46,731 bases of DNA, taken from NCBI GenBank assembly GCA_937872095.1, contig CALMNW010000025.1:1-46731 (forward strand), read 5' to 3'. This document shows positions 2,883 through 32,728 of this stretch, piece after piece. The notes under the pieces are model-generated. The model worked only from the letters and a program-made list of their open reading frames with translations. It ran no database searches and had not been told where the DNA came from. A program made the translations under genes and the position numbers. This DNA comes from an uncultured Verrucomicrobiota bacterium (GTDB lineage Bacteria > Verrucomicrobiota > Kiritimatiellia > CAIQIC01 > Lenti-01). Within the stretch, counting starts at the first letter, position 1, and every line of letters starts with the position of its first letter.

Positions 2883-2893
2883 CGTCTCCTGTG

Positions 2894-2957
2894 AGCGTCG
2901 GCGTTCAGGCTGAAGCACACCTATGTCCCGCAGGGGAGAGTGCTTGAATGCCATATT
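2894..2957 (-). other. degenerate attC site
   Basis: Read on the minus strand, the left half contains GCATTCAAGC and the right half AGCCTGAACGC followed by CGACGCTCAC. The halves pair imperfectly, and the right half matches the CAGCCTGAACCCTGACGTT pattern of the better sites in this array. Both core triplets are mutated (AAC to AAT, GTT to GCT), so I expect it to be recombination-poor. It follows the stop of the SecD-like gene. Confidence 0.5.
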
Positions 2958-3416
2958 ATTTCAATGCACCGTTGATCTCGTTCGCCAGCTCGGTCGCCTC
3001 TTGTTCGGACATTCTTCCTGAAAGCCAGAATTTGCCTCCGGCAATCTCCGCTTTTACGATGGGAGCTACAATGAGCGTTCCATCTACGAAAATGACGACA
3101 CGCTTCTCGATGTTCTGTCGCGTGAGCGCGGCCAAACGGTCGCGGCCCGCATCGGTGAACTCCACTTCGACATATGCGTACGGATCGTGTTCGAGTGTTT
3201 GCACGTTCGCGGAACGAACCATGGTCTCGTCGAGATCAGGCGTCTTTTTACGTGCATGAGCTCTGTGGCTTTCGTTACTTGATTCGTAAAAACGATATCA
3301 TCGGTGTCGGGGGCTGGTTGCGCCGTCGTTACGCGCATTTCAAACATGTGCGGGACGTCATCCGCAAGGGCAACGACAGCCATCAGGACAAAGATCATTG
3401 CGGCGAGTGTTTTCAT
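2956..3416 (-). pseudogene. exported SecD P1-like protein, frameshifted (cassette gene)
   Basis: The gene opens with MKTLAAMIFVLMAVVALAD, a signal peptide, after AGGA at good spacing. It reads MFEMRV...TELMHVK and then leaves frame at a run of five A (plus-strand T run 3245-3249). Restoring one base joins it to KTPDLDETMVRSANVQTL and then to a stretch with EVEFTDAGRDRLAALT, VIFVDGTLIVAPIV and SGRMSEQEATELANEI. That order matches the P1 periplasmic domain of SecD (head and base) without the membrane part. The wild-type product would be a roughly 153-residue exported stand-alone domain. A programmed -1 slip on the A run is possible but less likely than mutation or sequencing error. It is the first gene after a promoter/att-like module. 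Confidence 0.6.
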
Positions 3417-3434
3417 GGCGTTGTTCCTGATATT

Positions 3435-3533
3435 CATCCACCAGTTTGTCGGGCCGATCGGAGACCGGTATAATGCCAACGGATAAGCCCTCCTGACTGG
3501 CCAAAGAATAGCGGAAATGCGGGGAAGGGTCAA
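3435..3533 (-). promoter_or_regulatory. promoter plus att-like module, copy 1
   Basis: Minus strand: -35 TTGACC (3528-3533), 17 bases, -10 TATTCT (3505-3510), then TTGGCCAGTCAGGAG, and 62 bases after the -10 the block TCGGCCCGACAAACTG followed by GTGGATGAA. Copy 2 (31091-31190) shares the promoter, the GCCAGTCAG leader and the TCGGCCCRAYAAA block at the same spacing. Here the core GTT is altered to GGT. It would transcribe the SecD-like cassette and the genes beyond it. Confidence 0.6.
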
Positions 3534-3555
3534 CGGCGCAACGGGCTGAGGTTAT

Positions 3556-3622
3556 GTAGGGGCGCAGCTTGCTGCGACCGGACGGCAGCCGATAAACCGG
3601 TCCGAGCAAGCTCGGCCCCTAC
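3556..3622. repeat. inverted GTAGGGGC repeat pair
   Basis: Two 26-bp arms begin GTAGGGGC and end GACCGG (3556-3581 and, inverted, 3597-3622), around a 15-bp centre. Each arm also contains its own small hairpin (GCAGCTTGCTGC and CGAGCTTGCTCG). It lies directly upstream of promoter/att module copy 1. It resembles the pair at 45518-45592 in outline (GTAGGG edge plus hairpin) but not in the hairpin sequence. Confidence 0.75.
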
Positions 3623-3654
3623 GATTGGCAGCCTGAAATCCATCTCGTGCTCTT

Positions 3655-3756
3655 TCAGGAAATATAGAGCAGGCCATGTTGGGCGAGTAAAAAGCCGTAA
3701 ATCGCGCCTGCGGAGGCAAACCATTGGCCCGCGCGGATGGCCATTTTCTTTTTCAT
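3655..3756 (-). CDS. 33-residue small membrane protein (tentative)
   Basis: ATG 3756 reads MKKKMAIRAGQWFASAGAIY and continues with a hydrophobic GFLL...LLYIS end. An alternative start two codons upstream adds MH. Three lysines precede one hydrophobic segment, as in a single-pass small membrane protein. There is no clear ribosome site, and an open frame this short can occur by chance, so support is modest. It lies between a weak attC remnant (about 3757-3805) and the inverted repeat at 3556. Confidence 0.35.
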   Translation of the reverse strand: MKKKMAIRAGQWFASAGAIYGFLLAQHGLLYIS

Positions 3757-3819
3757 GTGCATGTCAGCGTTTGTCTATCTCGCTGAACTCGCCTGTCTTC
3801 GTTGGAGGATCTCCGATGA

Positions 3820-4329
3820 TTATTCGGGTTCGATTTCGCAGGTGGGTTCACGTTGCCGCCGCATCTGTTCGCGGATTTGAAAATACGCGCGAAGTTCTTT
3901 CGAATAGGCGCAACAGGCGAAGACGCCGCCCTGCACCATGGCCACGGCCAATAAAACAACGGATCGCCGTGCGACGGCAAAAGAAGCGAGATCCATGGCC
4001 ATGTGGAGAAAACTCATGCCGAGCACGGTCAATCGTGCCCAATTCCGGCCGTCGAGAAAATACGGGATCACCCACAGCAGCAAAATCGGCGGCACGGCCA
4101 CAAGGGCCACGATGGCGCCGCGAACCAGGAGAATATGTTCCCGGCTGTGGCTGCCGTAGATCCGCATGAGATCCGTCGAATTCAGGCTCGACGTCAGGAC
4201 GACCAGAATGCCGAAACCGACGGCAACGCCCATTATGCCCAAGACGGCAAGAACGCGCTCGACCCATCCGATCGATTTAATGATCGGGGGGATTTCTTCT
4301 ACGGTGTAAAATCGAAGCGTTGTCGTCAT
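3820..4329 (-). CDS. four-helix integral membrane protein, unknown (cassette gene)
   Basis: 169 residues starting MTTTLRFYTVEEIPPIIKSI. Four hydrophobic segments can be seen at about 25-47, 69-92, 101-117 and 121-140. The N-terminus and the tail (REQMRRQREPTCEIEPE) are charged. I do not recognise the family. It starts just after the GTTGGAC core of a short attC and is on the same strand as all other genes here, as expected of a cassette. Immediately after its stop only a degenerate CGCTGACATGC motif remains of a possible attC. Confidence 0.7.
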   Translation of the reverse strand: MTTTLRFYTVEEIPPIIKSIGWVERVLAVLGIMGVAVGFGILVVLTSSLNSTDLMRIYGSHSREHILLVRGAIVALVAVPPILLLWVIPYFLDGRNWARLTVLGMSFLHMAMDLASFAVARRSVVLLAVAMVQGGVFACCAYSKELRAYFQIREQMRRQREPTCEIEPE

Positions 4330-4336
4330 CGTTTCA

Positions 4337-4374
4337 GTCCAACGTCGCTCGGCGCCTGCAGGATGTCGTTAGGC
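4337..4374 (-). other. short attC-like site with consensus cores
   Basis: On the minus strand the site runs from GCCTAAC, an exact RYYYAAC core, to GTTGGAC, an exact GTTRRRY core, in 38 bp. That is shorter than usual attC sites, and the internal L boxes are not recognisable. It therefore looks like an internal deletion. The TAA stop of the cupin gene lies inside the first core. Confidence 0.5.
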
Positions 4375-4764
4375 CCGGTATTGCTCGTCGCTGACCGGTT
4401 CCAGCCACTCGATCGACTTGCCGTCGAGTTCTTCGTAGACGGCGATGTGCGTCATGGCCGTCGTTGCCGCGGCGCCATGCCAATGCTTCTCGCCCGGCGA
4501 GAACCAGACGACGTCTCCCGCCCGGATTTCCTCGACCGGGCCGCCCCAGCGCTGCACCCGCCCGCAGCCCGCCGTCACGATGAGGGCCTGACCGAGCGGG
4601 TGGGTGTGCCATTTGGTGCGCGCCCCCGGCTCGAACGTGACGTTGACGGCCTGCGCCCGTGCCGGGGCGATTCGCTCGAACAGGGGCTCCACCCGCGCCG
4701 TGCCCGTAAACCAATCCGCCAGTCCCGATTTCGACGGTTGTGAACCGCATCGCTTGATTTCCAT
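4369..4764 (-). CDS. small cupin-domain protein (cassette gene)
   Basis: 131 residues starting [19 protein letters not shown]. The start has a strong GAGGAGAAGG site. The cupin barrel shows the first metal motif ([15 protein letters not shown], two His plus a downstream acidic/Gly pattern) and the second ([18 protein letters not shown]). This layout is that of the small single-domain cupins annotated as carboxymuconolactone-decarboxylase-associated or hydroxynitrile-lyase-like. The substrate cannot be inferred. It has no signal peptide, so it is one of the few cytosolic cassette products. The stop codon lies within the core of the following attC. Confidence 0.85.
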
Positions 4765-4789
4765 CGCCTTCTCCTCGTTTCCTGGCCTT

Positions 4790-4853
4790 AACGTCAGGGT
4801 TCAGACTGAGGCGCGCTTTGGCGCCGATAGCCCGCAACGCCTTTTCCGGTGTT
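4790..4853 (-). other. attC site
   Basis: Minus strand: AAC (4851-4853) opens the site, then GGCGTTGCGGGCTATCGG, a GGCGCCAAAGCGCGCC central hairpin, the right box AGTCTGAACCC and the CTGACGTTAAGG core end. The right half and centre match the site at 7597-7661 closely; the left half has diverged. The upstream GspG-like gene reads into it and stops at the TGA within CCCTGACG. Confidence 0.65.
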
Positions 4854-5201
4854 ATTTTCATTCCAAATTATGTCGTCGACCGTTTTAAGCACTCGGTCTG
4901 GACCTGCCGATCTGAGTTCGTATCGGTTTGATAATACTGAATAGGAATATGGTATGCCCCAGGCATCAACGAGCGAGATGTTGGCCTTAATATAGGTGGC
5001 AGCGAACGGTTGGTGAGTGTTAAGCACGGCCAGGTTGGCGGGCAAGTGCTCGTAGTCCACTTCATACGAATCGATCGCTGTTGCTAGCCCGGCAATATCT
5101 AGCTGCACCGCATTCATTTTGTTTGCTTGGCTGTAACATCCCACCGTAACTATTTGGGTTGCCCCAAGAACCCATAATATTGGCGCGCATCTCATATTCA
5201 T
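4794..5201 (-). CDS. exported GspG pseudopilin-like globular domain protein (cassette gene)
   Basis: 135 residues starting [20 protein letters not shown] hydrophobic N-terminus ends at a Cys that could be a weak lipobox (TVGC). The body resembles the C-terminal domain of the type II secretion major pseudopilin: [20 protein letters not shown], then [10 protein letters not shown] and the DAWG-to-SAGPDR spacing of GspG. The prepilin peptidase motif and the long N-terminal helix are absent, so it is not a functional pilin. The last twelve residues ([11 protein letters not shown] region) are encoded by the attC. GAGAAG precedes the start. Confidence 0.7.
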
Positions 5202-5211
5202 CTTCTCACCG

Positions 5212-5268
5212 AATGTCAGGGTTCAGGCTGAGGCGTGCTTTGGCGTCGATTGCCGACCCCCTCTTGTT
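5212..5268 (-). other. attC site
   Basis: 57 bp on the minus strand: CCAACA left core, GGGGGTCGGC left box, central GACGCCAAAGCACGCC, right box AGCCTGAACCC, then CTGACATTCGG. The right core GTT is changed to ATT. Box pairing GGGGTC-GGC / GCCTGAACCC is imperfect but in register with the other sites. Confidence 0.65.
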
Positions 5269-5656
5269 GGTCATTGATGTTGTCATACATCTCATTTTTA
5301 AAGAATCGCCTGCAGGAGGTGCCATTAGAGGGCATACCGCCATTGAGAAAGAGGTAATTTCCAATAACCGTGTGGGAGATAGAATATGTATTTGTTTGAG
5401 ACCATTCTTGTTGGGCAAAAGTCATGCCAAGGGTGACATTTGTTTCCGCTAGGAACCCGTTAATGACGAAAGGAACGTCTTGCGTTATGCAGGTACTCAT
5501 TTGTCCGTTACCGGATATGCAATTGCCGGTCTGGACAAGATCGAGGGTATATATCGTGTAGCCGCCCTCCGAGATCCAAGTGCCCGACAAATCGTTTTCA
5601 GAAGATGCAAATGCGGTTGCGGCTAACACCCCAATGCAAATGACAATCGCTTTCAT
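5216..5656 (-). CDS. secreted hypothetical protein, possibly lipocalin-like (cassette gene)
   Basis: 146 residues with a signal peptide (MKAIVICIGVLAATAFASS). The mature part begins with DLSGTWISEGGYTIYTLDLV and a following GNCISGNG pattern. This recalls the opening strands of small calycin-like barrels, but the evidence is weak and I assign no function. Four cysteines could form disulfides. The C-terminal tail GNRRQSTPQPEP is encoded by the following attC and closely resembles the tail of the neighbouring 4794-5201 product. Base composition is clearly more AT-rich than in the chromosomal genes. Confidence 0.65.
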   Translation of the reverse strand: MKAIVICIGVLAATAFASSENDLSGTWISEGGYTIYTLDLVQTGNCISGNGQMSTCITQDVPFVINGFLAETNVTLGMTFAQQEWSQTNTYSISHTVIGNYLFLNGGMPSNGTSCRRFFKNEMYDNINDQQEGVGNRRQSTPQPEP

Positions 5657-5664
5657 GTATTAAT

Positions 5665-5730
5665 GTCGAACGTTTACGGGTCGGGGTGTCCGACACCTTG
5701 CGGCGGGAGCCCTGGACCCGCTTGTTGGCC
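5665..5730 (-). other. attC site
   Basis: Minus strand: GGCCAAC left core (5724-5730), left box GCGGGTCCAGGG, centre CCCGCCGCAAGG, right box ACCCCGACCCG, right core GTTCGAC (5665-5671). The boxes pair as CGGGTC[C]AGGG against CCCCGACCCG, with one unpaired base in the left box, as is typical of attC. The left half resembles the two sites of the second array. Confidence 0.7.
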
Positions 5731-6171
5731 TTCGTCTTTCATCTCTAGATATGTCCGAACGAACATATCCCAGTAGGAGCGGGTATCCGGTTTATCGATC
5801 ACGTTCAAGATGACGCCGGTAGAATGGTTCTCGAACATAACGAGTGCGGGGATTTTATGCGAACCGCAAAATGCCGTTAATAGCTCAAGGGTGTCTTCGG
5901 CATCCGCGCGAGGGGACTGAATCGGGATGTTAAAGGAGGAGAGATACCCCAGCCGTTTAAGAGCGGCAATGGCGTCGGCTTGCGTGGCCACGCCCGCTTT
6001 CATTGCGTCCATGTCGAGTTGATGCGATCGGTCGAATAAACGGCTCATCTCGAAGGAGGCGCGGTCGTATTTGCACAGGAAATGTTTGATCAACATTGGT
6101 TTTGCCGACACGCCAACGACGATGATGGCGATGATTGTGCCCAGGACGATCTTCGGCGTGCGTTTATTCAT
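5674..6171 (-). CDS. membrane-anchored hypothetical protein (cassette gene)
   Basis: 165 residues starting MNKRTPKIVLGTIIAIIVVG. A basic N-terminus and one hydrophobic helix (about 7-24) form an uncleaved anchor or signal; the rest is soluble (MDAMKAGVATQADAIAALKR, LLTAFCGSHKIPALVMFEN). There is no recognised family. The tail QQAGPGLPPQGVGHPDP is encoded by the attC at 5665-5730, whose CCCGTAA supplies the stop. The start lies just after the degenerate core of the preceding site. Confidence 0.65.
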   Translation of the reverse strand: MNKRTPKIVLGTIIAIIVVGVSAKPMLIKHFLCKYDRASFEMSRLFDRSHQLDMDAMKAGVATQADAIAALKRLGYLSSFNIPIQSPRADAEDTLELLTAFCGSHKIPALVMFENHSTGVILNVIDKPDTRSYWDMFVRTYLEMKDEGQQAGPGLPPQGVGHPDP

Positions 6172-6187
6172 CTTGTTCCTTTAGGCC

Positions 6188-6244
6188 GGCGTCAGCTTTC
6201 AGGCTGGGGCGCACCTTGGCGCCGATAGCCAGGAATTCCTTGTT
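6188..6244 (-). other. attC site
   Basis: 57 bp on the minus strand: GAACAA left core, left box GGAATTCCTGGCT, centre ATCGGCGCCAAGGTGCGCC, right box AGCCTGAAAGCTG, then CTGACGCC where GTT is expected. The left half is nearly the same as at 7597-7661. The mutated right core suggests a fixed, old junction. Confidence 0.65.
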
Positions 6245-6247
6245 CAA

Positions 6248-6862
6248 CTATTCCGATGTCCATGTGTTTAGATTCGTGATGCACTCGAGGGCCGCATTGG
6301 TTGGAATATTGTTTGTCCCCTTGACTCGAATGAATCCGGTGGCCTCGTCCGCCGGGACATAGACCGTATTGCTATACAAACCCTCGCCATACGTGATGGC
6401 AAGTACATGCCCCGTATTTGTTGGCACCGATGTGATCGAAGAAATATCGGGCGATGTGAAGAATGGGTAGGGAGCAAAGATTTCGTTTGGGCCAAGGATA
6501 TATAATTCCCCGACTTCTGGAGTAACCGCGACATTATATGTGCGTCCTGATTGAGATAAGGGTGCCGACGTGTCATACAAGAGCAATGAGGAGTCCGTTC
6601 CTTTAACCCAGTCAGATACGATGACTCGCTCAACCCCACCGGTGGCCCCCACGGGTTCTCCTTCGTAGGCCTCCAATGCAAAATAATATTTCGACCAAGC
6701 GTTAGTGACATTGATGGAAACATAAAAGCTGGTTGGATTCAGGCTGATGTCCTCAAGAGAAATCCAGGGTATGTCGGAGGATCTGGCCGGCGTAGCGAAA
6801 ATGGCGATGCATACACCAGCTATTATAGCCGCGTATCGGTAATGTACGGTGTGCACAATCAT
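6248..6862 (-). CDS. secreted hypothetical protein (cassette gene)
   Basis: 204 residues. An N-terminal hydrophobic stretch (about 10-27, ending FATPARSS) is a probable signal peptide. The remainder is rich in Ser, Thr, Tyr and Val, with a beta-strand character (FYVSINVTNAWSKYYFALEA, TGFIRVKGTNNIPTNAALE). The last part resembles the short beta-sandwich ends seen on secreted proteins of this group. No catalytic motif is visible. The TAG stop lies just before the attC, so unlike several neighbours it carries no attC-encoded tail. Confidence 0.65.
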   Translation of the reverse strand: MIVHTVHYRYAAIIAGVCIAIFATPARSSDIPWISLEDISLNPTSFYVSINVTNAWSKYYFALEAYEGEPVGATGGVERVIVSDWVKGTDSSLLLYDTSAPLSQSGRTYNVAVTPEVGELYILGPNEIFAPYPFFTSPDISSITSVPTNTGHVLAITYGEGLYSNTVYVPADEATGFIRVKGTNNIPTNAALECITNLNTWTSE

Positions 6863-7590
6863 TCCTTTCGTCGAACGTCAGCGTTCGGTTGAGGCGTCTT
6901 GCCGCTGTTGGTCGCCGCGGCCTGGGCGGCGACGGCTTGCTTCAATCGCATCCGGTACCAGAAAATCGCGAGACCATTGGCGACGGCTCCGAAGACACCC
7001 ATCGCGGCAAACGTACCGACGTAGAGCAGGACGGGCAACGCGGGGAGGAGGGCCAGGGGATATGCCAGCAAGACCGGGGACAGCCGGGGTTCCGCGGTCC
7101 GGTTGAAGAGCTTGTGGGCCACTTCAACGTTGAGCCAGATGCCGAGACCGAGCGCGAGCGGCAAGGCCAGGACGTAGGGCGTGCGGAGATCGATCAGGCG
7201 CAGGAAGAACATCGCCATTGGGCTGGATTCGGGTCTCAGCACGGAGACATGCAGCAGCTTGGAAGACCAGAAACACAGCGTCGGCCAGATCGGCGTCAGG
7301 AGAAAGCCGACGACGAACACCGGAGGGGCCGGATTGCGCCCGCTGCGGATCCGTTTCTGAACGTGGAAAACCGAGACCGCCCATATCGCGAAAGAACCGA
7401 GAATCAGGAAGGGCAAATACGAATAATCGATCCACACGCTGCTGAGGGCGACGACGACGGACGTCGTCACGCCGATGCCGAGGGCCCACAGACAAAACCA
7501 CAGCCACATCCATGCCCCGGCGGCCCAAAGCAGAACCAGCCACGGGTAGGTCCCGATCAGCGGGCGATCATTTCCAGGCGGCGCGATCAT
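6859..7590 (-). CDS. polytopic membrane protein, unknown (cassette gene)
   Basis: 243 residues starting MIAPPGNDRPLIGTYPWLVL. The ATG at 7590 is the first after the core of the preceding attC; the frame is open upstream only because it reads through that attC. About six hydrophobic segments can be seen, with short loops (KRIRSGRNPAPP, RPESSPMA). No family is recognised. The final residues (KTPQPNADVRRKE) fall in a shortened attC. Overlap with the next gene's ATG is four bases. Its base composition is nearer to the chromosomal average than that of its neighbours. Confidence 0.65.
   Translation of the reverse strand: MIAPPGNDRPLIGTYPWLVLLWAAGAWMWLWFCLWALGIGVTTSVVVALSSVWIDYSYLPFLILGSFAIWAVSVFHVQKRIRSGRNPAPPVFVVGFLLTPIWPTLCFWSSKLLHVSVLRPESSPMAMFFLRLIDLRTPYVLALPLALGLGIWLNVEVAHKLFNRTAEPRLSPVLLAYPLALLPALPVLLYVGTFAAMGVFGAVANGLAIFWYRMRLKQAVAAQAAATNSGKTPQPNADVRRKE
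6874..6909 (-). other. truncated attC-like site
   Basis: Minus strand: ACCAAC left core, then only 36 bp to the right core, which reads CGCTGACGTTCGAC. The right half (GCCTCAACCGAACGCTGACGTT) follows the family pattern, but the left box that should pair with it is missing. I read it as a half-site left by deletion. It overlaps the 3' end of the 6859-7590 gene. Confidence 0.45.
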
Positions 7591-7596
7591 TTTTCG

Positions 7597-7661
7597 TTGC
7601 AACGTCAGGGTTCTGGCTGAGGCGCGCTTTGGCGCCGATAGCCAGGAACCCATTGTTCGCT
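7597..7661 (-). other. attC site (best example in the first array)
   Basis: Minus strand: AGCGAAC, then AATG, left box GGTTCCTGGCT, centre ATCGGCGCCAAAGCGCGCC, right box AGCCAGAACC, CTGAC and core GTTGCAA. The boxes are exact complements except for one extra C in the left box, the extrahelical base characteristic of attC. AAC to GTT spans 57 bp (7601-7657). The opening AACAAT...GGTTC is also like the start of classical 59-base elements. Confidence 0.8.
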
Positions 7662-7669
7662 TTCATTTC

Positions 7670-8143
7670 TTATGAGATCGCAATAAGTTCATCTTTGGTC
7701 ACAACCCAACGACCGTCAATAAGCTCTATAGTGAGGCGTATGACGGACCTGCTCTGATTGGCCTCTGCCATCAGGCAGATGACCTCAGCCTTTGTATCTG
7801 TAATCCAATGTATTTCTGAATGGGTAAATAGTAATCCGACTTGTCCCGTTATGGCATCGGTAATGCGACTGCCATTCGCGTCATCTCGGATTGATTCTGA
7901 CGAAGCCTTAACGGGAGTGGATACATCTTTGAATCGAGCAAGAAATTCATCGGGCGGGGTTGTCTCTCTCCCCATCGCAATGAAGAATACGGCTGCATTT
8001 GTCTGAGCCCCTGATGTGTTGTGTTGGAATTGGTGCCTAAATTCTGCCTCAATCACGTCTAATTCATTCGTTGATACGCGTGATTCAGCGCGGGAACATA
8101 TGCAGGCGAGCATAAGCCCAATGGTGGCAATAATTGTTTTCAT
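7670..8143 (-). CDS. secreted hypothetical protein (cassette gene)
   Basis: 157 residues with a signal peptide (MKTIIATIGLMLACICSRAE; the Cys residues give no clean lipobox). The mature part alternates strands and helices and ends WITDTKAEVICLMAEANQSR...ELIDGRWVVTKDE. That pattern of a strand with W, a Ser-rich turn and a terminal G-R/K-W-V-V strand recalls NTF2/SnoaL-like folds, but I make no firm claim. It is the 5'-most gene of the first array and stops just before the best attC. The start at 8143 is preferred over 8182, which would place coding across the att-like core. Confidence 0.65.
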   Translation of the reverse strand: MKTIIATIGLMLACICSRAESRVSTNELDVIEAEFRHQFQHNTSGAQTNAAVFFIAMGRETTPPDEFLARFKDVSTPVKASSESIRDDANGSRITDAITGQVGLLFTHSEIHWITDTKAEVICLMAEANQSRSVIRLTIELIDGRWVVTKDELIAIS

Positions 8144-8156
8144 TATTTCTTTAGCG

Positions 8157-8243
8157 AACGTTCTATAGGTCGATGTAGTCATTTGCCGGGGAAAAGGCCG
8201 GCTTTCCGGTCAAAAGGGTAGGTAGCTGGAGAGGATTTAGCAA
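8157..8243 (-). promoter_or_regulatory. diverged promoter plus att-like module, copy 3
   Basis: Minus strand: TTGCTA (8238-8243), 17 bases, TACCCT (8215-8220), TTTG, and 55 bases later TCGACCTATAGAAC directly followed by GTTCGCT (core at 8157-8159). The order and spacing match copies 1 and 2, and the TCG-CC-ATA-AAC-GTTCG end is similar to copy 2, but the promoter hexamers differ. It heads the first array. Confidence 0.4.
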
Positions 8244-9181
8244 GTGGATAAAATGGTTCGCGAAGGCATTGGGGACCGCGGGTGGCTTCGGACAAACAAC
8301 ACAATTGGCCTTGCATCAATGGGTCGCGATGAATGTCGCGCGGGGCGGGGGTTGTCGTGGCGGAAAAGGATCAGCCCGGATACGAAAGCGATTTCCGGTG
8401 ATAGGCCAATGTTGGCCTATCGCGGGAGATTTTTCGTACGGCGAGCCGATTTGAAGCGTTTCGAGTTTGGCTTTTGGCCGGTATTACCCTGATAGGCCAA
8501 TGTTGGTCTATCACGGAAGCCGGGGAAAGGGTGGCAGGCATGGACTTGTGGGAGAAGGGAATGGACCTGGCGGAATCGGGGAATTCCTGTTGCGACGGCG
8601 GATCGTTTCAAAGAACAAACCATTTTTCAACTTTGCGACCACAAAGCCATGCGCGCGGTGCATTTCGATCAAAAATAGCTCCTGTAAGGCGTTTTCGGTC
8701 ATTTTCGAGGCATTTTCGGCTCCCCAAGGTCTTGAAAACCGAGCAGGAACGCAGAAAACACACGAAAACAGGAAAATCTCCGTTCCAATCCTGTTTTCCT
8801 GATTCTCCTGTTTTCCTGCTCCATTTCCCTTTTGATGGCCAAAAAATGAAGGAAATCGCGATAGAACGCGAGATGGGGGCGGAAAATGATCGTTTGGGGC
8901 CGAAATTTGTCTGTTCGGGGCGCAAAACGGCCGATTTTAGGCGAAAATAGCGATTTTAGTCGTTTGGAAGGGCCTGAGCCGCGATTTTTGGGGCGGGAGA
9001 GGCCTTTCTCGCAAAGGCGCAGGGGTTGCAAAGGGGAAGAGGGCCGATAATCTGCTCACACGGAGACGCGGAGGCACGGAGGGGGGCGAAGAGATCGGAA
9101 CGCTTGCGGGGCTTTTGCGTCGATTGCGTCGCTTGCGTTGAAGGGATCGGGCACGAGCCGCGATTTGTGGCGGCGGGGAGG
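8244..9181. other. gene-poor spacer with palindromes
   Basis: About 940 bp without a supportable gene. Open frames exist on both strands but overlap each other and look like low-complexity translations. The stretch holds two GATAGGCC palindromes, an A/T-rich run of repeated CAGGAAAA and ACAGGA words (about 8745-8825), and around 9057-9080 an ACACGGAGACGCGGAGGCACGG word of the kind found repeatedly in spacers of such genomes. A related word occurs near 28857-28915. Confidence 0.6.
8400..8512. repeat. two copies of a 22-bp GATAGGCC palindrome
   Basis: Copy one (8400-8421) is a perfect palindrome: arm GATAGGCCAA, centre TG, and the exact reverse complement. Copy two (8491-8512) differs at one base (TTGGTCTATC). 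Both are followed by a CRCGG word, so they are also direct repeats 91 bp apart. Operator, small hairpin or mobile palindrome are all possible. Confidence 0.7.
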
Positions 9182-9964
9182 CTAAGATTTTGGCGGGAGG
9201 GAGAACTTTTTCATCGGCAGGAAGACGAAGAGCAGGACGCCGGCGAGGAACAGGCCGATGGAGGTGACTTGGGCGACGTCGAGGACGTACCAGGACTGGC
9301 GTTCGTCGCCGCGCAGGTATTCGAGCGCGAAGCGGACGGGGGGATAGAGCAGGAGGTAGAGCGCGAACACGGCGCCGTCTTTTTTGCGCCGGGGATAGGC
9401 GAACAGGAGGATGGCCCAGATGAGGATCAGCGCGGCGGATTCGATGATCTGGACGGGAAAGAGCGGAATGCCGGCGAACAGCTTGCCGGGCTCGCAGATG
9501 GGCGGATAGACGACGCCGCAGGCGTGGTCGCCGGCGGGCCGGCCGTAGCAGCAGCCGTTGAGGAAGCAGCCCACGCGCCCGAGGCCGTGGCCGATGGCAA
9601 GGGCGGGGATGGCGAAGTCGGCCAGGTGCCAGACCGGCAAGCGGTGCTGGCGCGCGAAGAGAATCAGCGCGACGCAGGCCAGCAGGAAGCCGCCGTAGAA
9701 GATGAGCCCGCCCTGGTCGATGCGGACGATCTCGAGCAGGTTGGCGCGGTAGTAGGACCAGTTGGCGAAGACGTAGGCGAGGCGCGAGCCGACGATGCCG
9801 CTGGTCATCAGCCAGAAGCCGAGATCGGAAGCGAAGCCCGCCGGCCGGGATTCGCGACGGGCGAGCCAAACCCAGGTCAGGATGCCGGCCAAAAATCCCA
9901 GGGCGGCCATGACGCCGTAGCTGTGGATTTCCTTGCCGAACACGCTGAACAGGATGGGGTGCAT
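9182..9964 (-). CDS. lgt: prolipoprotein diacylglyceryl transferase
   Basis: 260 residues from MHPILFSVFGKEIHSYGVMA. It transfers a diacylglyceryl group from phosphatidylglycerol to the lipobox Cys of prolipoproteins in the inner membrane, the first step of lipoprotein maturation. About seven membrane segments can be seen. Family hallmarks are IDQGGLIFYGGF and the Lgt signature region AIGHGLGRVGCFLNGCCYG with its essential Arg, then RFALEYLRGDER near the end. The Cys-rich form of the signature (GCFLNGCCYG) is a known variant. An upstream in-frame ATG at 9982 is less likely. The gene is divergent from the permease at 10048. Many lipoproteins in this window depend on it. Confidence 0.95.
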   Translation of the reverse strand: MHPILFSVFGKEIHSYGVMAALGFLAGILTWVWLARRESRPAGFASDLGFWLMTSGIVGSRLAYVFANWSYYRANLLEIVRIDQGGLIFYGGFLLACVALILFARQHRLPVWHLADFAIPALAIGHGLGRVGCFLNGCCYGRPAGDHACGVVYPPICEPGKLFAGIPLFPVQIIESAALILIWAILLFAYPRRKKDGAVFALYLLLYPPVRFALEYLRGDERQSWYVLDVAQVTSIGLFLAGVLLFVFLPMKKFSLPPKS

Positions 9965-26457: not shown

Positions 26458-27164
26458 AACTCGGCGTCAACGTCGACCATGTCGCCACGCTGCGGCAGGC
26501 GCGCGGCACGACCTATCCCGCGCCGCTCGAAGCCGCCCGCCTCTGCGAAAAGGCCGGGGCCGACGGCATCACCATCCATCTGCGCGAAGACCGGCGCCAC
26601 ATCCAGGATGCCGACGTGCGGGAATTCCGCCGGGCGCTGAAAGTTCCGCTCAATCTCGAAATGGCCAACAGCCCCGAGATCGTGGAAATCGCGGTCGCGG
26701 TGAAACCCGCCGAAGTCTGCCTCGTGCCGGAACGCCGCCAGGAACTCACCACCGAAGGCGGACTCGACGCCGCCGGCCAGTTCGACGCGCTGAAACCGTC
26801 CATCGCGAAGCTGAAGGCGGCGGGCATCGTCGTCAGCCTGTTCATCGAGCCGTCCGTCCGGCAGCTCGACGCCGCCGTCGCGCTGGGCGCGCCCGTCGTC
26901 GAACTGCACACGGGAAAATATTGCGACTTGGCCGGCGCGGCGCAGGCGGACGAACTGCGGCGGCTGGCGGAAGCCGCGGAATACGGCCACCGCCTCGGTT
27001 TGCGCATCAATGCCGGGCACGGGCTCAACTACGACAATTTGCCGGCCTTCCGGCAGGCCGTGCCGCATCTGGAGGTCCTGAACATCGGCCACAGCATCGT
27101 GGCCCGCGCCGTTCTCGTCGGCATGGAACAGGCCGTGCGCGAAATGAAAGACCTGCTCGCATGA
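26454..27164 (+). CDS. pdxJ: pyridoxine 5'-phosphate synthase
   Basis: 236 residues. It condenses 1-deoxyxylulose-5-phosphate with 3-amino-2-oxopropyl phosphate to pyridoxine phosphate. Family motifs: KLGVNVDHVATLRQARGTTYP, ITIHLREDRRHIQDADV, LNLEMANSPEIV, VCLVPERRQELTTEGGLD, VVELHTGKY, NAGHGLNYDNL and EVLNIGHSIVARAVLVGM. All are intact. The ATG overlaps the microprotein stop, and its own TGA overlaps the start of the NAD(P)HX repair gene (ATGA), so three genes form one coupled unit. Confidence 0.97.
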   Translation: MKLGVNVDHVATLRQARGTTYPAPLEAARLCEKAGADGITIHLREDRRHIQDADVREFRRALKVPLNLEMANSPEIVEIAVAVKPAEVCLVPERRQELTTEGGLDAAGQFDALKPSIAKLKAAGIVVSLFIEPSVRQLDAAVALGAPVVELHTGKYCDLAGAAQADELRRLAEAAEYGHRLGLRINAGHGLNYDNLPAFRQAVPHLEVLNIGHSIVARAVLVGMEQAVREMKDLLA

Positions 27165-28696
27165 AATTCATCGCCTCGGAATCGCTGCGCAAGGCCGAGA
27201 CCCGGGCGATCGCCAAGGAAAACGCGCTGGCGACGGGCATGATGGAACGCGCCGGCCGGGGCTTGGCCCGCGCCATCCACGAAATCGCCGTCCAGATGGG
27301 CCGGCCCACCGCGCCGGTCCGCTTTTTGGCCGGTCCCGGCAACAACGGCGGCGACGCCTTCGCGGCGGCGATCGCCCTGCGCGATCTCGGCCAGCCGGCG
27401 GACGTCTGGCTGACCTGCCCAAAGGAAAAACTGCGCGGCACGGCCAAGCTGTTCTTCGCGGAACTGGCCAAGCTCGATTTGCCGTGGCGGGAAGTGGTGG
27501 GGGAACGGGCCTGGCAGCGCCAAAACGAAGCGACGCTGGCTTCGCCGATCCTGGTGGACGCCCTGCTGGGCACGGGCGCGCGCGGCGCGCCGCTCGGCGA
27601 CATCCGCCGGGCCGTCGAATACGTCAATTCCAAGCGTGCGTTTTCCATCATCGTCGCCGCCGACGTTCCAACGGGCCTGGACGCCGATACCGGCGTGCCG
27701 GCCGAATGCGCGGTCCGCGCCGATTTCACCGTCACCATGTGCCTGCCCAAGGCCGGCATGGCCGCGCCGGTCGCCCGGGAATACTTGGGTTCGCTGACCT
27801 TGATTCCCATCGGCCTGCCCCGCGACTACGTCGACGACATGCCCGACGCCAGTCCGGACCTGCAGATGACCTCCGTGATGGACGTGCGCCGGCTGCTGCC
27901 GCCGCGTCCGCGCGACGCAAACAAGGGCACCTACGGCACCGCGCTGCTGCTGGGCGGTTCCGCGCGCTATCCCGGCGCCATCGTGCTTGCGGCCGAAGGC
28001 GCCGTTCGCTCCGGCGCGGGGCTCGTCCGCGTGTCCACGGTGGACAGCGCCGCCGTTGCGCTCGTCGCGCGCGTGCCCGAAGCCATCGCCGACGTCCGCC
28101 TCGGCGCCGAACCTGCACTCGACGGCGCCACCGCCGTCCTGGCCGGACCGGGCCTCGGCCGCGGCTCCGAAGTTGCCGCGCTCGTGGATTACCTGCTGCG
28201 CGAAACGCCCGTGCCGCTGCTGCTCGACGCCGACGCCCTCAACGCGCTGGCCGGCCGCCCCGAAGCCGTGCGCGCCTGCAAGCAACCCGTCGTCCTGACG
28301 CCGCACCCCGGCGAACTGGCGCGCCTGCTGGGTACCGACGTCGCAACCATCCAGGGCGACCGTCTGGCCGCCGCGCGCGCAGCCGCCGAACGCACCGGCG
28401 CCATCGTGGTGCTGAAAGGGGCGGGAACCCTCATCGCGCAGACCGGCCAACCCACGTGGATCAATTTGACCGGCAATCCCGGCATGGCTTGCGGCGGCTG
28501 CGGCGACGTGCTTGCCGGCCTGCTGGCCGGACTCCTGGCCCAGGGCCTGCCGCCGTTCGACGCCGCCTGCGCGGCCGCCTGGCTCCACGGCAACGCCGGC
28601 GACTACGCCGCGCTGCGCTGCACCCAACCCGCCATGCGCGCCGGCGACATCGCCGCCGCGCTCCCCGACGCCTTCCGCTACGTCTCCCTCCGCTGA
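27161..28696 (+). CDS. nnr: bifunctional NAD(P)H-hydrate epimerase / ADP-dependent NAD(P)H-hydrate dehydratase
   Basis: 511 residues with both repair domains, as in E. coli YjeF/Nnr. The N-terminal epimerase (about 1-215) has FLAGPGNNGGDAFAAAIAL and PTGLDADTG. The C-terminal dehydratase (about 235-505) has KGTYGTALLLGGSARYPGAI, GAGLVRVST, LDADALNALAG, TPHPGELARLLG, KGAGTLIA and GMACGGCGDVLAGLLAGLL (the last a Cys variant of the usual GSGD loop). It restores hydrated NADH and NADPH. The start at 27161 overlaps the pdxJ stop, a common genomic pairing. Confidence 0.95.
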   Translation: MKFIASESLRKAETRAIAKENALATGMMERAGRGLARAIHEIAVQMGRPTAPVRFLAGPGNNGGDAFAAAIALRDLGQPADVWLTCPKEKLRGTAKLFFAELAKLDLPWREVVGERAWQRQNEATLASPILVDALLGTGARGAPLGDIRRAVEYVNSKRAFSIIVAADVPTGLDADTGVPAECAVRADFTVTMCLPKAGMAAPVAREYLGSLTLIPIGLPRDYVDDMPDASPDLQMTSVMDVRRLLPPRPRDANKGTYGTALLLGGSARYPGAIVLAAEGAVRSGAGLVRVSTVDSAAVALVARVPEAIADVRLGAEPALDGATAVLAGPGLGRGSEVAALVDYLLRETPVPLLLDADALNALAGRPEAVRACKQPVVLTPHPGELARLLGTDVATIQGDRLAAARAAAERTGAIVVLKGAGTLIAQTGQPTWINLTGNPGMACGGCGDVLAGLLAGLLAQGLPPFDAACAAAWLHGNAGDYAALRCTQPAMRAGDIAAALPDAFRYVSLR

Positions 28697-29376: not shown

Positions 29377-29382
29377 AGGACT

Positions 29383-29437
29383 TACGTCACGGGTCACCGT
29401 CGCGCCGCTTGCGGCGCGTAAGGTGGACCCGGTTGTT
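29383..29437 (-). other. attC site (second array)
   Basis: 55 bp on the minus strand: GCGAAC left core, left box CGGGTCCACC, centre TTACGCGCCGCAAGCGGC, right box GGTGACCCG, then TGACGTAAGTC. The boxes are exact complements apart from one extra C in the left box. The core GTT reads GTA. It differs from the site at 30519-30573 at only four of 55 positions. Confidence 0.8.
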
Positions 29438-30494
29438 CGCCTACGTTTGTTTCGTTGCCGTCATTTGGGTTCTCTGCAGGGAGAACCTGATTATACTCGT
29501 ACAATTTGGAGTCGGTGGTGCCCGCGTAGAGTTTGCCATTCAGCACGGCGATGCTGCAGGTATTCGATGGCGCAGTTGAGAACATTGACCAAGTGGAGAA
29601 ATCAGTCGTTGCGTGAATGCGCATTTTACTCTCGCCCAGAAGATATAATGCCTTTTTCGAAACGCAGAAGGCTCGAACCGGGCGGCCGCGATCAAATGCC
29701 AACTGAATTTTCTCGCCATCGAACGTTAACAGCCGTTTTTGGGTCAGGATCAACATCTTGCCCAAGAAGACTTCTGTGTGTTGCGTATACCAAGGAAGGA
29801 GAGGGCCCTGGGTCCAGTTCGCGCCATCGAATACCATGCTGTTCGTCTCGTAACTGCATTGAAGGTAGAGTTTGTTGTTCATGGCCTCGGCGAAATAAAA
29901 GCGGTTCCTGTCATCCCCGGGCTGATTGGAGAGCTCCAACGATTTCTTCCACGTCGCACCCCCGTCGAGGCTTCGGAGCGCCACGGCACGAGTATCGCGA
30001 TCGCTCGACCCGACAAGCCAAAGGTCAGTTCCTGTCAGCGTGGCCATATCGTAGGCGTGTGTGATGGTTTCACCCCCCGGCATATATATACGCCCGTCGC
30101 TCCATTGTCCGGCGGGATCACAAACCGAAAACACTGGGTCTCTTGTACGTATGGGATCGATCGCGGGAACGTAAAGGCGACCCATCAGGGGGCGGAACAC
30201 TTCGATGGACTCGGTCCTGGACGTCCATGCATTTGCAAATGTCCGGGTGGTCGGATCATAGGCTGTGATGACAATCGGCCCTGTGTTCTTGTCGTAGTCG
30301 CCATAGCCCAGATACAATTTGCCGTTCCAGGGACACAATGCATGGATTTCCCTTCCCCATGTTGTCGGTTGGGCCGCAGCCGGCGAAATCGTTCCCAACT
30401 CGGTCCATGCGTCATTCGTTTGGGCTAATACGGGCAATGGAATGGCGAGCAGGCACCCTGCCGTCGAATACAACAAGGCCTTGAACATTCTCAT
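29394..30494 (-). CDS. secreted beta-propeller-like protein with Asp-box (cassette gene)
   Basis: 366 residues. The signal peptide is MFKALLYSTAGCLLAIPLPV (ending LAQ), preceded by MR. The mature protein consists of recurring strands such as NGKLYLGYGDYDKNTGPIVI, GTDLWLVGSS, NNKLYLQCSYE, KMLILTQKRLLTF and NGKLYAGTTDSKLYEY. It has one Asp-box (SLDGGATWKK), the motif of sialidase-type and related propellers, but no catalytic Arg triad is evident. The fold is probably a propeller with unknown ligand. The tail PGPPYAPQAARR is encoded by the attC, which also supplies the TGA stop. Confidence 0.7.
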   Translation of the reverse strand: MRMFKALLYSTAGCLLAIPLPVLAQTNDAWTELGTISPAAAQPTTWGREIHALCPWNGKLYLGYGDYDKNTGPIVITAYDPTTRTFANAWTSRTESIEVFRPLMGRLYVPAIDPIRTRDPVFSVCDPAGQWSDGRIYMPGGETITHAYDMATLTGTDLWLVGSSDRDTRAVALRSLDGGATWKKSLELSNQPGDDRNRFYFAEAMNNKLYLQCSYETNSMVFDGANWTQGPLLPWYTQHTEVFLGKMLILTQKRLLTFDGEKIQLAFDRGRPVRAFCVSKKALYLLGESKMRIHATTDFSTWSMFSTAPSNTCSIAVLNGKLYAGTTDSKLYEYNQVLPAENPNDGNETNVGEQPGPPYAPQAARR

Positions 30495-30518
30495 TCGTTT
30501 TTTATTCCTTCCCTTGCG

Positions 30519-30573
30519 AACGTCATGGGTCACCGTCGCGCCGCTTGCGGCGCGTAAGGTGGACCTGCTTGTT
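30519..30573 (-). other. attC site (second array, best cores)
   Basis: 55 bp on the minus strand: TCGAAC left core (AAC at 30571-30573), left box AGGTCCACC, centre TTACGCGCCGCAAGCGGC, right box GGTGACCC, ATGAC and core GTTCGCA (30519-30521). The pairing has one extrahelical C. Intact triplets at both ends make it a good candidate for an active site. Confidence 0.82.
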
Positions 30574-30602
30574 CGATGCGATTTCCTTTATGCATTTTAC
30601 AT

Positions 30603-31076
30603 TCAGGCCTTTGGCTTCGAGGTTTGTTCCATTGTGCTATTCTTTAGAAGGATGTCCTGGTGGCGTTGTAGCTTGAAGTACCACATAACAAATCCCCAAG
30701 CAGCCATTACTGCTCCAATAAGCATTATAACTGGGGTGAGATAATATATTCGTCTTAATGACACAGCCGAGGCTTCCGTTTTTTCGGATTTCTCTCTTAA
30801 TGAGAGAGAATCCTCAAAAAGAGCAGTGTAGTTCTTAATTGCATCATTAAGTTCCTTACCCAGCACATCACTATGCGGAAGGAGCACTTCTATATTCTTT
30901 TTATGAAATTCAGTACGTGAATGTAATGCTTCTATCCCCACCCGCATTTCTGCATCCAGTTGGGCTTGCCTGTCGATTCGGAATTCAAGAAGGGCTGCCA
31001 TGGAGAAAACAAGGAATACTCCTGATATGGCTGCGAATTTGTAAAGGCTGTCGGTCGGGAAATTAGGAATATTCAT
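30603..31076 (-). CDS. two-helix membrane protein with periplasmic coiled coil (cassette gene)
   Basis: 157 residues starting MNIPNFPTDSLYKFAAISGV. One membrane segment near the N-terminus (about 14-29), an amphipathic alpha region with coiled-coil character (about 35-100; LDAEMRVGIEALHSRTEFHK) and a second membrane segment (about 110-131) before a basic tail (HQDILLKNSTMEQTSKPKA). The topology is that of a sensor-like or scaffold hairpin without a signalling domain. It is among the most AT-rich genes in the window and follows promoter/att module copy 2, so it is the first cassette of the second array. Confidence 0.7.
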   Translation of the reverse strand: MNIPNFPTDSLYKFAAISGVFLVFSMAALLEFRIDRQAQLDAEMRVGIEALHSRTEFHKKNIEVLLPHSDVLGKELNDAIKNYTALFEDSLSLREKSEKTEASAVSLRRIYYLTPVIMLIGAVMAAWGFVMWYFKLQRHQDILLKNSTMEQTSKPKA

Positions 31077-31090
31077 TGAGTATCTCTTTT

Positions 31091-31190
31091 CATCGAACAG
31101 TTTTATTGGGCCGACCCGAGGTTGGCTTTACGTGGCGGGGTGTTTTCTGCTGACTGGCAAAAGAATAGCGGAAAAATGGGCGCGGGTCAA
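31091..31190 (-). promoter_or_regulatory. promoter plus attI-like module, copy 2
   Basis: Minus strand: TTGACC (31185-31190), 17 bases, TATTCT (31162-31167), TTTTGCCAGTCAGCAG, then 63 bases after the -10 the block TCGGCCCAATAAAACT and the core GTTCGATG (triplet at 31096-31098). The end resembles the classical attI1 end, which has GTCGCCCTAAAACAAAG before GTTAGATG. Both core and promoter are intact here. No integrase gene is adjacent. Confidence 0.65.
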
Positions 31191-31894
31191 TGGCGCAACG
31201 GGATGCGGGTTTGGGGAATAGGGAGTTCGCCGGAACATCGGCGGCAGGCGCGAAGTAGGCTTTATGCCGGTTGTTGGCTTCTGCATAAAGCCTCCTTCGC
31301 GGGCCAGGCCTCGCGGGCGGCAAATTTCGCCAAAAACGGACCGTAAAGAGCGATTTTGTTCGCTGGAGAACAAAAATGGGCTTTTGGGGACCGAAAATCG
31401 GCGCGCAGAGGCGCGAAGCGGCGAAAAACGAGGTGCAACGGGCTTGAATGGTCAAAAACGGCATGGGAACGGGAAAAACTACGAAATTCGCGAAAATCGC
31501 GAAATAGGGAGAAATCCGATCGAGTGGACCCATCCGTGTCCATTCGTGCCATTCGTGGTGAAAAATCCCCGGTTTTGGGGGCTGGAAGGCCGAAAATCGG
31601 GCCAAAATCGACTGAAAATGGCCGTTTTGACGCCTCGAAGGGCAGTCATCCCGAGATTATTTGCCCGCCGGCTTGTCCGCCGGAGCTTCAGCGAAGGTGG
31701 AAGCCTTGCGCGAAGGCGGGTCGAGGGATCTGGGCTTATACATTGGCGATGGCCGGCGGAGAAGCCGAGATGTCTCGACTGACGCTCGACATGAACGGAT
31801 TCAACTGTCGGCGAAAGGTCGTGGACGGTTTTGGTGGCCGCCAGGGGCCCATTTGTGTCGATTTGCGGTCAAAACGGCCGGAAACCGGCTTTCA
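31191..31894. other. gene-poor spacer between second array and mutM
   Basis: About 700 bp without a supportable gene; the open frames overlap and translate to low-complexity Arg/Ser text. It contains the strong inverted repeat at 31249-31301, a TCCGTGTCCATTCGTGCC word (about 31530) and a GCCGGCTTGTCCGCCGGAGC word (about 31670) of the kind scattered in spacers of related genomes. Confidence 0.6.
31249..31301. repeat. 19-bp-arm inverted repeat upstream of module copy 2
   Basis: Arms CGCGAAGTAGGCTTTATGC (31249-31267) and its reverse complement with one mismatch (31283-31301) around a 15-base loop. It could form a stable hairpin. No T-run follows on either strand, so it is not a typical terminator. 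Confidence 0.8.
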
Positions 31895-32728
31895 TCAGAG
31901 CTTCGGGGCGCGCTGGCAGGTCGGGCAGAGGTGGGTCGAGCGCTGGCCGACGAGAATGCGACGGATGGGAGTGCCGCAGCGGGGGCAGGGCGCGCCGGTC
32001 TGGCCGTAGGCGTTGAGTTGTTCCTGGTTGCGGCCGCGCTCGCCGCGCGGCAAGACGAAATGGGTTTTGCCCGCTCCGAACGTGGTGCCGAGGTTGCGGA
32101 TGCCCTTGCGCAGGACGGAGCGGAGCGCTTGCAGCAGTTCCGCGGCCTGCGCGCCCGTCAGCGCGTCCGAACGGTGCCGCGGATGCAGGCGCGCGGCCCA
32201 AAGGGCTTCGTCGGAATAGATGTTGCCGACGCCGGCGAGGAACGACTGGTCGAGCAGCAGCGGTTTGAGTTGGCGTGCGCGGGCCGCGAGGCCGGCGGCG
32301 AATTGCGCTTGGGAGATCGCCAGCGGTTCGGGACCCAGATTGCGCAGAACAACCGCGGGATCGCGCACCAGCCAAACGCGGCCGAACTTGCGCACGTCTT
32401 CGAAATGCACTTGCCGGCCGTCGTCGAGCGTCCAGACGACGCGGTCGTGGAGGCGCGGACGGGTTTTCGGGGGCTGGACGTCCAGATGTCCGCTCATGCG
32501 CAGGTGGACGAGCAAGGTGCGGTCGCCGGACAGTTCGGCCACGATGAATTTGCCGCGGCGGGATAGGTCTCGGATTTCCCGCCCGCGGATTTCGCGCGCG
32601 AAGCGCCGGGCGTCGGGCGCGGCGACGGTCTTGGGCCAGAACACGCGCGCTTGGACGATGCGTCGGCCGATCAGACCGACGGAACGCAGTTCGCGGACGA
32701 CGGTTTCGACTTCGGGGAGTTCGGGCAT
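31895..32728 (-). CDS. mutM: formamidopyrimidine-DNA glycosylase
   Basis: 277 residues. Removes 8-oxoguanine and formamidopyrimidines. The mature N-terminus PELPEVETV carries catalytic Pro2 and Glu3. Lys in SRRGKFIVAEL is the conserved beta-elimination residue, VHLRMSGHL and the H2TH motif (FLAGVGNIYSDEALWAARLH) follow. The C-terminal zinc finger is CPRCGTPIRRILVGQRSTHL then CPTCQ. The ATG at 32728 is fixed by the need for Pro at position 2; an upstream ATG (32785) would block activity. Confidence 0.97.
   Translation of the reverse strand: MPELPEVETVVRELRSVGLIGRRIVQARVFWPKTVAAPDARRFAREIRGREIRDLSRRGKFIVAELSGDRTLLVHLRMSGHLDVQPPKTRPRLHDRVVWTLDDGRQVHFEDVRKFGRVWLVRDPAVVLRNLGPEPLAISQAQFAAGLAARARQLKPLLLDQSFLAGVGNIYSDEALWAARLHPRHRSDALTGAQAAELLQALRSVLRKGIRNLGTTFGAGKTHFVLPRGERGRNQEQLNAYGQTGAPCPRCGTPIRRILVGQRSTHLCPTCQRAPKL

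Follow-up and report, generated by a model that had tools for sequence, protein, structure and literature searches.

The DNA analysed in this study, a window of 46,731 nucleotides on contig C25 of the draft genome of an uncultured Verrucomicrobiota bacterium (3.33 Mb in 102 contigs, 93% complete; hereafter the study genome), carries an array of integron gene cassettes at 2.9-7.7 kb. A covariance model built here identified seven attC sites in this region, every one on the minus strand. Among them are the four sites that a preliminary description of the same DNA had named for testing (7597-7661, 6188-6244, 5665-5730 and 5212-5268), for which model R2 returned 7599-7664, 6186-6251, 5667-5733 and 5210-5275 with scores of 58.8 to 81.8 bits. 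The region had also been described as AT-richer, and its GC content at 2-9 kb is indeed 0.51-0.60, whereas the remainder of the window is mostly at 0.62-0.71. With at least two attC sites and no neighbouring intact integron integrase, the array falls under the definition of a CALIN (cluster of attC sites lacking integron-integrases). The Phage_integrase search gave zero matches on C25, so an intact intI beside the array was not found; the term "integrase-less" used earlier holds in that respect, but a predicted attI core and a 73-nt intI stub are present. Our analysis indicates a real array with a predicted attI and an intI stub, in a genome where about a dozen predicted heads (modules of a predicted promoter and attI) lack an integrase and are probably filled in trans by a single one. 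The features of the array are given below (C, G and L numbers denote contigs, genomes and loci).

8540..8612, plus: truncated 5' end of intI (about 24 codons, one indel), divergent from the cassettes; similar to G001 intI
8157..8304, minus: type A head, predicted attI core AACGTTCTATAG (crossover G|TT) and leader with predicted promoter; core common to G001
7670..8143, minus: first cassette gene; no Pfam family
7599..7664, minus: attC, canonical hairpin (81.8 bits; fold z -3.4)
6859..7590, minus: cassette gene; no Pfam family
6872..6934, minus: degenerate attC (32.9 bits; non-canonical fold)
6248..6862, minus: cassette gene; in G002:C59 it is the first one after a type B head (79% over 625 columns)
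6186..6251, minus: attC, eroded hairpin (68.3 bits; fold z -0.8)
5674..6171, minus: cassette gene; no Pfam family
5667..5733, minus: attC, eroded hairpin (58.8 bits; fold z -0.2)
5216..5656, minus: cassette gene running into its own attC; no Pfam family
5210..5275, minus: attC, eroded hairpin (63.0 bits; fold z +0.3)
4794..5201, minus: cassette gene, T2SSG-like (PF08334)
4788..4853, minus: attC, eroded hairpin (70.7 bits; fold z +0.4)
4369..4764, minus: cupin gene (PF07883) starting directly after the preceding crossover; probably a cassette
4339..4377, minus: shortened attC-like site with R boxes GCCTAAC / GTTGGAC (by eye) and without inner boxes (8.0 bits; E 5.5)
3820..4329, minus: gene at array tail; no Pfam family above its cut-off
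3440..3548, minus: type B head (predicted promoter and attI), crossover degenerate (R3 71.2 bits; in R3 training set)
2956..3420, minus: SecDF P1-head-like cassette gene broken across two reading frames (PF22599 on 2956-3222; open reading frames)
2892..2957, minus: degenerate attC (28.9 bits; fold z -1.6)

Model R1 was built from the seven window sites and R2 from 37 sites including those seven; since both training sets contain them, matches in the window taken alone are partly circular and independent support comes from the rest of the genome. Folding of the sites tells against part of the preliminary description, which had seen imperfect inverted repeats along the array. A tidy repeat is confined to 7597-7661; sites 6186, 5667, 5210 and 4788, four of the seven, fold no better than shuffles, site 2892 folds weakly, and site 6872 folds strongly (z -3.0) but not in the shape of an attC. 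Over the two arrays of the window together, three of the nine attC sites adopt a canonical hairpin.

The stub was compared with sister species G001, which carries an intact 464-codon intI with an attI core on its 5' side, pointing away from 17 same-strand attC sites. Window DNA at 8526-8606 matches the start of this gene (L127 13366-14760) at 78% over 82 nt, and the similarity ends after about 24 codons, with an indel; the stub scored 64.4 bits, whereas 60 block shuffles reached 31.0 at most. The core AACGTTCTATAG at 8157-8168, immediately upstream of the first cassette gene, is identical in all 12 bases in G001, and crossover and start codon lie similarly far apart (383 bp in the window, 461 bp in G001). 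AACGTTCTATAG is taken as a putative attI, by sequence only, because the agreement stops at the crossover (AACG|TT core) and the cassette side differs, as an attI predicts. Two palindromic GATAGGCCAATGTTGGCCTATC-like copies, possibly an operator, occur in the leader at 8399-8428 and 8490-8519, with the attI core on one side and the intI stub on the other. Copies of the type A leader with a degenerate or missing crossover occur at or within the arrays of C27 (L044 2977-3119) and C29 (L047 7997-8195), and shorter matches occur at C54 2899-2964 and C26 14734-14805; an integrase of the type A class was not found in the study genome. Because the four sites above fold like shuffles, only 7597-7661 is canonical and intI is reduced to a stub, the array is read as a type A relic, an integron from which the integrase gene has been cut out and in which the attC sites have eroded. 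The earlier suggestion of a cassette reservoir accordingly suits the genome as a whole but not this array, in which most attC hairpins are eroded.

A second array at 29381-31204, overlooked in the preliminary description, is better preserved than the first. Here the covariance model identified two further minus-strand attC sites (29381-29444 and 30517-30580), and the array, placed between mutM and the gene of 26921-28696, seems in good order with its head and two canonical attC sites.

31093..31204, minus: type B head, predicted promoter and attI core ending AATAAAACTG|TT (R3 83.5 bits; in R3 training set)
30603..31076, minus: first cassette gene; no Pfam family above its cut-off
30517..30580, minus: attC, canonical hairpin (43.8 bits; fold z -3.0)
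29394..30506, minus: second cassette gene; Kelch match weak and under its cut-off
29381..29444, minus: attC, canonical hairpin, near-copy of 30517-30580 (33.3 bits; fold z -3.2)

attC sites and the integrase across the genome

Search of the whole draft genome with R1 gave at least 48 matches at E<=10, window counted (150 of 4043 first-look candidates scored), in islands on C25, C49, C8, C27, C42, C47, C29, C100, C32, C84, C85, C69 and others; R2 gave 53 matches at E<=0.05 spread over 20 stretches. All 34 pairs of attC sites less than 3.5 kb apart lie on the same strand. The sites show an imperfect palindrome, paired arms, AAC...GTT ends and a G|TT crossover. In the alignment of 37 sites, compensatory double changes were found in 105 cells against 49 +/- 4.6 in shuffles, the covariation score was 0.306 where slid structures reached no more than 0.131, and 74.6% of cells were paired against at most 43.0% in slid versions; this alignment was fitted to the structure, so the covariation test is biased towards it, and the number of base pairs showing any double change (14) was not higher than in shuffles (14.4). 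Folded as single-stranded DNA, 18 of 51 attC sites reached z<=-3, compared with 3 of 100 random 66-mers. These genome-wide matches and the covariation bear out the earlier identification of a gene-cassette array with attC sites.

Analysis of 56 genomes revealed an R2 match at E<=0.01 in 35 and a TIGR02249 match above the cut-off in 21, and on these sequence matches integrons are widespread in the class. At 14 IntI loci of other lineages, R2 gave two marginal matches.

The preliminary description had proposed a search for intI over the full genome. Among six TIGR02249 matches in the study genome, only one, C54:1459-2376, was above the cut-off (369.7 bits; cut-off 265), so that one intact IntI exists but does not stand beside the window array; Phage_integrase matches were found on C2, C34, C42, C54, C60 and C87. 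The C54 protein has 482 residues and aligns with VchIntIA (2a3v) over residues 178-481. Among ten aligned integrases R300, H431, R434 and Y466 are invariant and H457 is nearly so; these correspond to the R, H, R, H and Y of VchIntIA, which we take to be the catalytic residues. With these residues and a largely conserved IntI-specific insert, the C54 protein classifies by sequence as an IntI-type tyrosine recombinase. It shares 41% identity with the G001 IntI, and its relatives carry the names Kiritimatiellae and Lentisphaerae, which agrees with the earlier "Kiritimatiellota-like" assignment. Its conserved N-terminal extension of about 160 residues (residues 1-160; L011 931-1400), common to Kiritimatiellae, Lentisphaerae and some Verrucomicrobia metagenome-assembled genomes, is predicted to form a second core-binding-like helical domain with four helices and a low-confidence linker. 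The start of contig C54 is 82 bp from the 3' end of the gene in first-cassette position, which puts the remaining array off the contig.

Heads without a neighbouring integrase

The head on the 5' side of the C54 intI consists of a predicted promoter, TTGACC-17-TAATCT, followed after about 64 bp by AATAAAACTG|TT; in six head copies fitting this promoter/attI pattern, the distance from the -35 box to the crossover is 95-96 bp. A sequence model of this type B head (R3), built from ten copies, all from the study genome, identified 14 heads there at E<=0.001 and 16 at E<=1. Thirteen of the 14 have no integrase beside them, and tblastn found no intI remnant within 1.5 kb upstream of these solo heads (less at contig ends). 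At E<=0.001 with stricter filters, 146 genomes of the class were searched and 142 had no R3 match. In C54 and in LaPlata (L179), Loclat (L180) and STCSWMC_75 (L181), the attI half of the head stands on the 5' side of an intact class-B intI, which is divergent from it, and at all four the head is conserved to G|TT and variable beyond; the more distant locus L183 had no R3 match, and at L182 the upstream sequence is just 74 nt long.

A same-strand attC lies within 2.5 kb downstream of 12 of the 14 heads (crude chance per head 0.0115; binomial 5e-22). Since ten heads built R3, heads outside its training are the fairer test, and a same-strand attC followed three of four such heads in the study genome, seven of seven examined in G002 (8 found), the one examined in G003 (2 found) and three of four examined in G009 (6 found), where the miss runs off the contig. 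The ACTG|TT crossover is kept in seven of 12 solo heads (C48 set aside). Behind 12 solo heads with an attI-like end, the first cassette does not abut ordinary chromosome; the C29 island has only a type A leader and no type B head. The attC sites behind some solo heads fold well (z<=-3), six of seven on C49 and both in the second array of the window.

A rival explanation is that the draft assembly fragmented one large integron array. The start of C54 close to its first cassette gene and the proximity of the C8, C9, C27 and C42 arrays to contig ends fit such an origin. The second window array lies between chromosomal genes on one contig, however, an own head is present at most arrays examined, and the heads on C25, C26, C48, C49, C66, C82, C85 and C100 have 2.7-15.5 kb of upstream sequence on contigs without a Phage_integrase match, which makes this explanation hardly credible.

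It is also very unlikely that the arrays are plain CALINs or cassettes inserted at non-classical attG sites and that an ordinary dispersed promoter repeat accounts for the upstream similarity. Dispersed non-coding repeats do surround the heads, R3 finds no head at six attC islands (C32, C42, C69 (two), C84 and C9), and attG insertion in E. coli and CALINs at seven loci in Xanthomonas are reported (PMC12444791, in part). Against this, the conserved block stops at the crossover base, its attI half is the same as the sequence on the 5' side of an intact intI in four genomes, intI stubs lie within the module in two genomes, and the R3 background in 146 genomes is near zero.

Those intI stubs were found in relatives. 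Contigs C1 and C94 of G009 align with the intact C50 unit along 347 nt at 94-95%, and their intI stubs end no more than 3 nt apart, near codon 41. Genome G019 belongs to a different family of the order; its contigs C4 and C27 align at 90.6% along 415 nt, with a 40-nt piece in addition, and keep intI to about codon 36, with ends no more than 3 nt apart where their mutual homology stops; C62 matches C4 over 436 nt at 89%, but its stub is shorter. Because independent losses of intI would hardly repeat the same cut, the head was probably copied in G009 and G019 with its integrase gene already cut. Copying of a truncated module is thus indicated in these two genomes; for the study genome, we infer it.

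Cassettes behind related heads were compared as well. A chromosomal gene region is common to contig C66 of the study genome and G003:C89 (84.6% over 3.1 kb, to a stop codon); beyond it each carries a head, with different cassettes behind. The cassette of window 6248-6875, which stands behind an attC in the study genome, comes in G002:C59 immediately after a type B head; the 79% similarity begins at G|TT and the attC sites of the two copies differ. In these comparisons cassettes differ and move. The attI-half motif GCATAAAGACAACTT recurs, by eye, on both strands upstream of the G003:C89 head (L175 640-1000), and these copies are possible extra IntI or regulator sites.

Given the repeated cut, the well-folded attC sites behind some solo heads and the differing cassettes at an orthologous head, we favour the reading that the solo platforms worked without intI in cis. 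We infer that the heads may be working attI sites and promoters, multiplied as truncated modules and recognised by the C54 enzyme, with cassette traffic in trans among them. Under the proposed mechanism, the single IntI would recognise the attI core at dispersed heads and insert circular cassettes at their G|TT, the promoter of each head would drive its first cassette, and old heads, such as the type A copy of the window, would decay. Put tentatively, the genome may thereby house a distributed integron, in which the freed attI-promoter head is a multi-copy platform, one IntI moves cassettes between a dozen sites of expression at once and the islands are breakpoints of chromosome rearrangement.

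Its main rival, which we regard as unlikely, is a graveyard: the heads would be remnants of many separate integrons, acquired or duplicated, each of which lost intI, with decay and no service in trans. The intI stub and eroded hairpins of the window suit this rival, as do the 28 of 51 attC sites that fall short of z -2, the degenerate crossovers of five heads (C8, C27, C49b, C25a and C66) and genome G002 (90% complete), which has heads but no intI above the cut-off. The near-identical cuts in two copies each in G009 and G019 are unlike independent losses, however, and the well-folded attC sites behind solo heads, the different cassettes behind the orthologous head of C66 and G003:C89 and the intact IntI of the genome also speak against it.

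Among the findings just listed for the graveyard, the attC sites short of z -2, the degenerate crossovers and G002 weigh against service in trans, and so do several others. Ten of the 14 heads trained R3 and were first noticed for their proximity to attC; the count of 12 includes C49b, where another head comes before the nearest attC. The two heads without a downstream attC are C54, at a contig end, and C66, with no R2 attC and a degenerate attC by eye; the G019 heads had no R2 attC within 2.5 kb (0 of 4). The C48 head matches in its promoter half only, the C54 head is unlike most others of the genome in its promoter-side half, and the type B heads of the study genome other than C54 have no recognisable upstream intI stub. 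To these are added the six islands without an R3 match, the weak R3 matches at E<=1 in G001, G003, G004, G005, G012, G015, G016 and others, and the leader match at C54 2899-2964, which lies off the array side of intI, so that the leader is not confined to arrays. Furthermore, another intI may be missing from the draft assembly, and contig ends may split some arrays.

Relation to known integron systems

In the usual picture of an integron there is one integrase and one attI, so only the first cassettes are expressed. A sedentary chromosomal integron (intI, attI, cassette promoter Pc and attC array, as in G001:C27) resembles the present system in its attC sites, G|TT crossover, attI core and array divergent from intI; it differs in that intI is a 73-nt stub in the window and that type B heads outnumber the intact intI by 14 to 1. 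CALINs likewise have at least two attC sites without a neighbouring intact intI, but the arrays here carry a predicted attI and promoter.

The comparisons that follow refer to portions of the articles cited. The closest precedent found is Shewanella prophage M16-3, where a complete integron stands beside an intI-less CALIN beginning with its own attI (PMC9892861); that is one prophage array, whereas here about a dozen heads are dispersed and some relatives have copied intI stubs. In Xanthomonas, CALINs at seven loci away from ilvD are stated to be mobilisable in trans (PMC12444791); arrays are dispersed there too and intI is inactivated in many strains, but attI heads are not mentioned in the portion of that article used. 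The delta-attI-type cassettes of mobile integrons provide extra attI copies within arrays, recombined by IntI1 (PMC12901181), with the attI downstream of a cassette gene, whereas the heads here belong to dispersed chromosomal arrays. Insertion at attG sites (Loot et al. 2024, as cited in PMC11023631 and PMC12444791) also places cassettes at numerous chromosomal loci; the difference here is that most arrays examined have a conserved head before their first cassette. Shewanella is reported to have CALINs and single cassettes in scattered positions (PMC9229058), and for cassettes of archaeal CALINs it is stated that they can be excised or captured in trans (PMC9668308). Since IntegronFinder 2.0 restricts attI detection to class 1 (PMC9024848, in part), CALINs called by it are unscreened for other attI sites, and integrase-less attI heads may be common yet unseen. 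In the literature searched, neither many copied attI heads per genome nor an integron paper with attC sites for this lineage was found. If the proposal is true, many attI-promoter heads under one integrase would allow many first-position cassettes to be expressed simultaneously, and arrays currently classed as dead CALINs would become live. The lineage would gain a testable system, with a complete unit in G001 and a dispersed form in the study genome and G002.

Several observations concern the surroundings of the arrays. Synteny with the sister species breaks at cassette islands (window 31904-31912 and 9209-9216; L044 4925), and mutM and the gene beside the C27 array adjoin each other in G006, G003 and G004. 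The non-coding stretch 8645-9175 consists of dispersed repeats that recur near islands on C27, C8, C29, C32 and C100, partly upstream of type B heads. A perfect 18-bp inverted repeat TTTTCCACACCGTGGAAA lies at 1390-1430, and a related stretch is found just after the G001 intI (L127 14787-14831). The complete G001 integron (L127, G001:C27:60001-80000) sits between homologues of window 11652 and 15483; in G006 (L128, G006:C133) the two points are only 18 bp apart, an apparent empty site.

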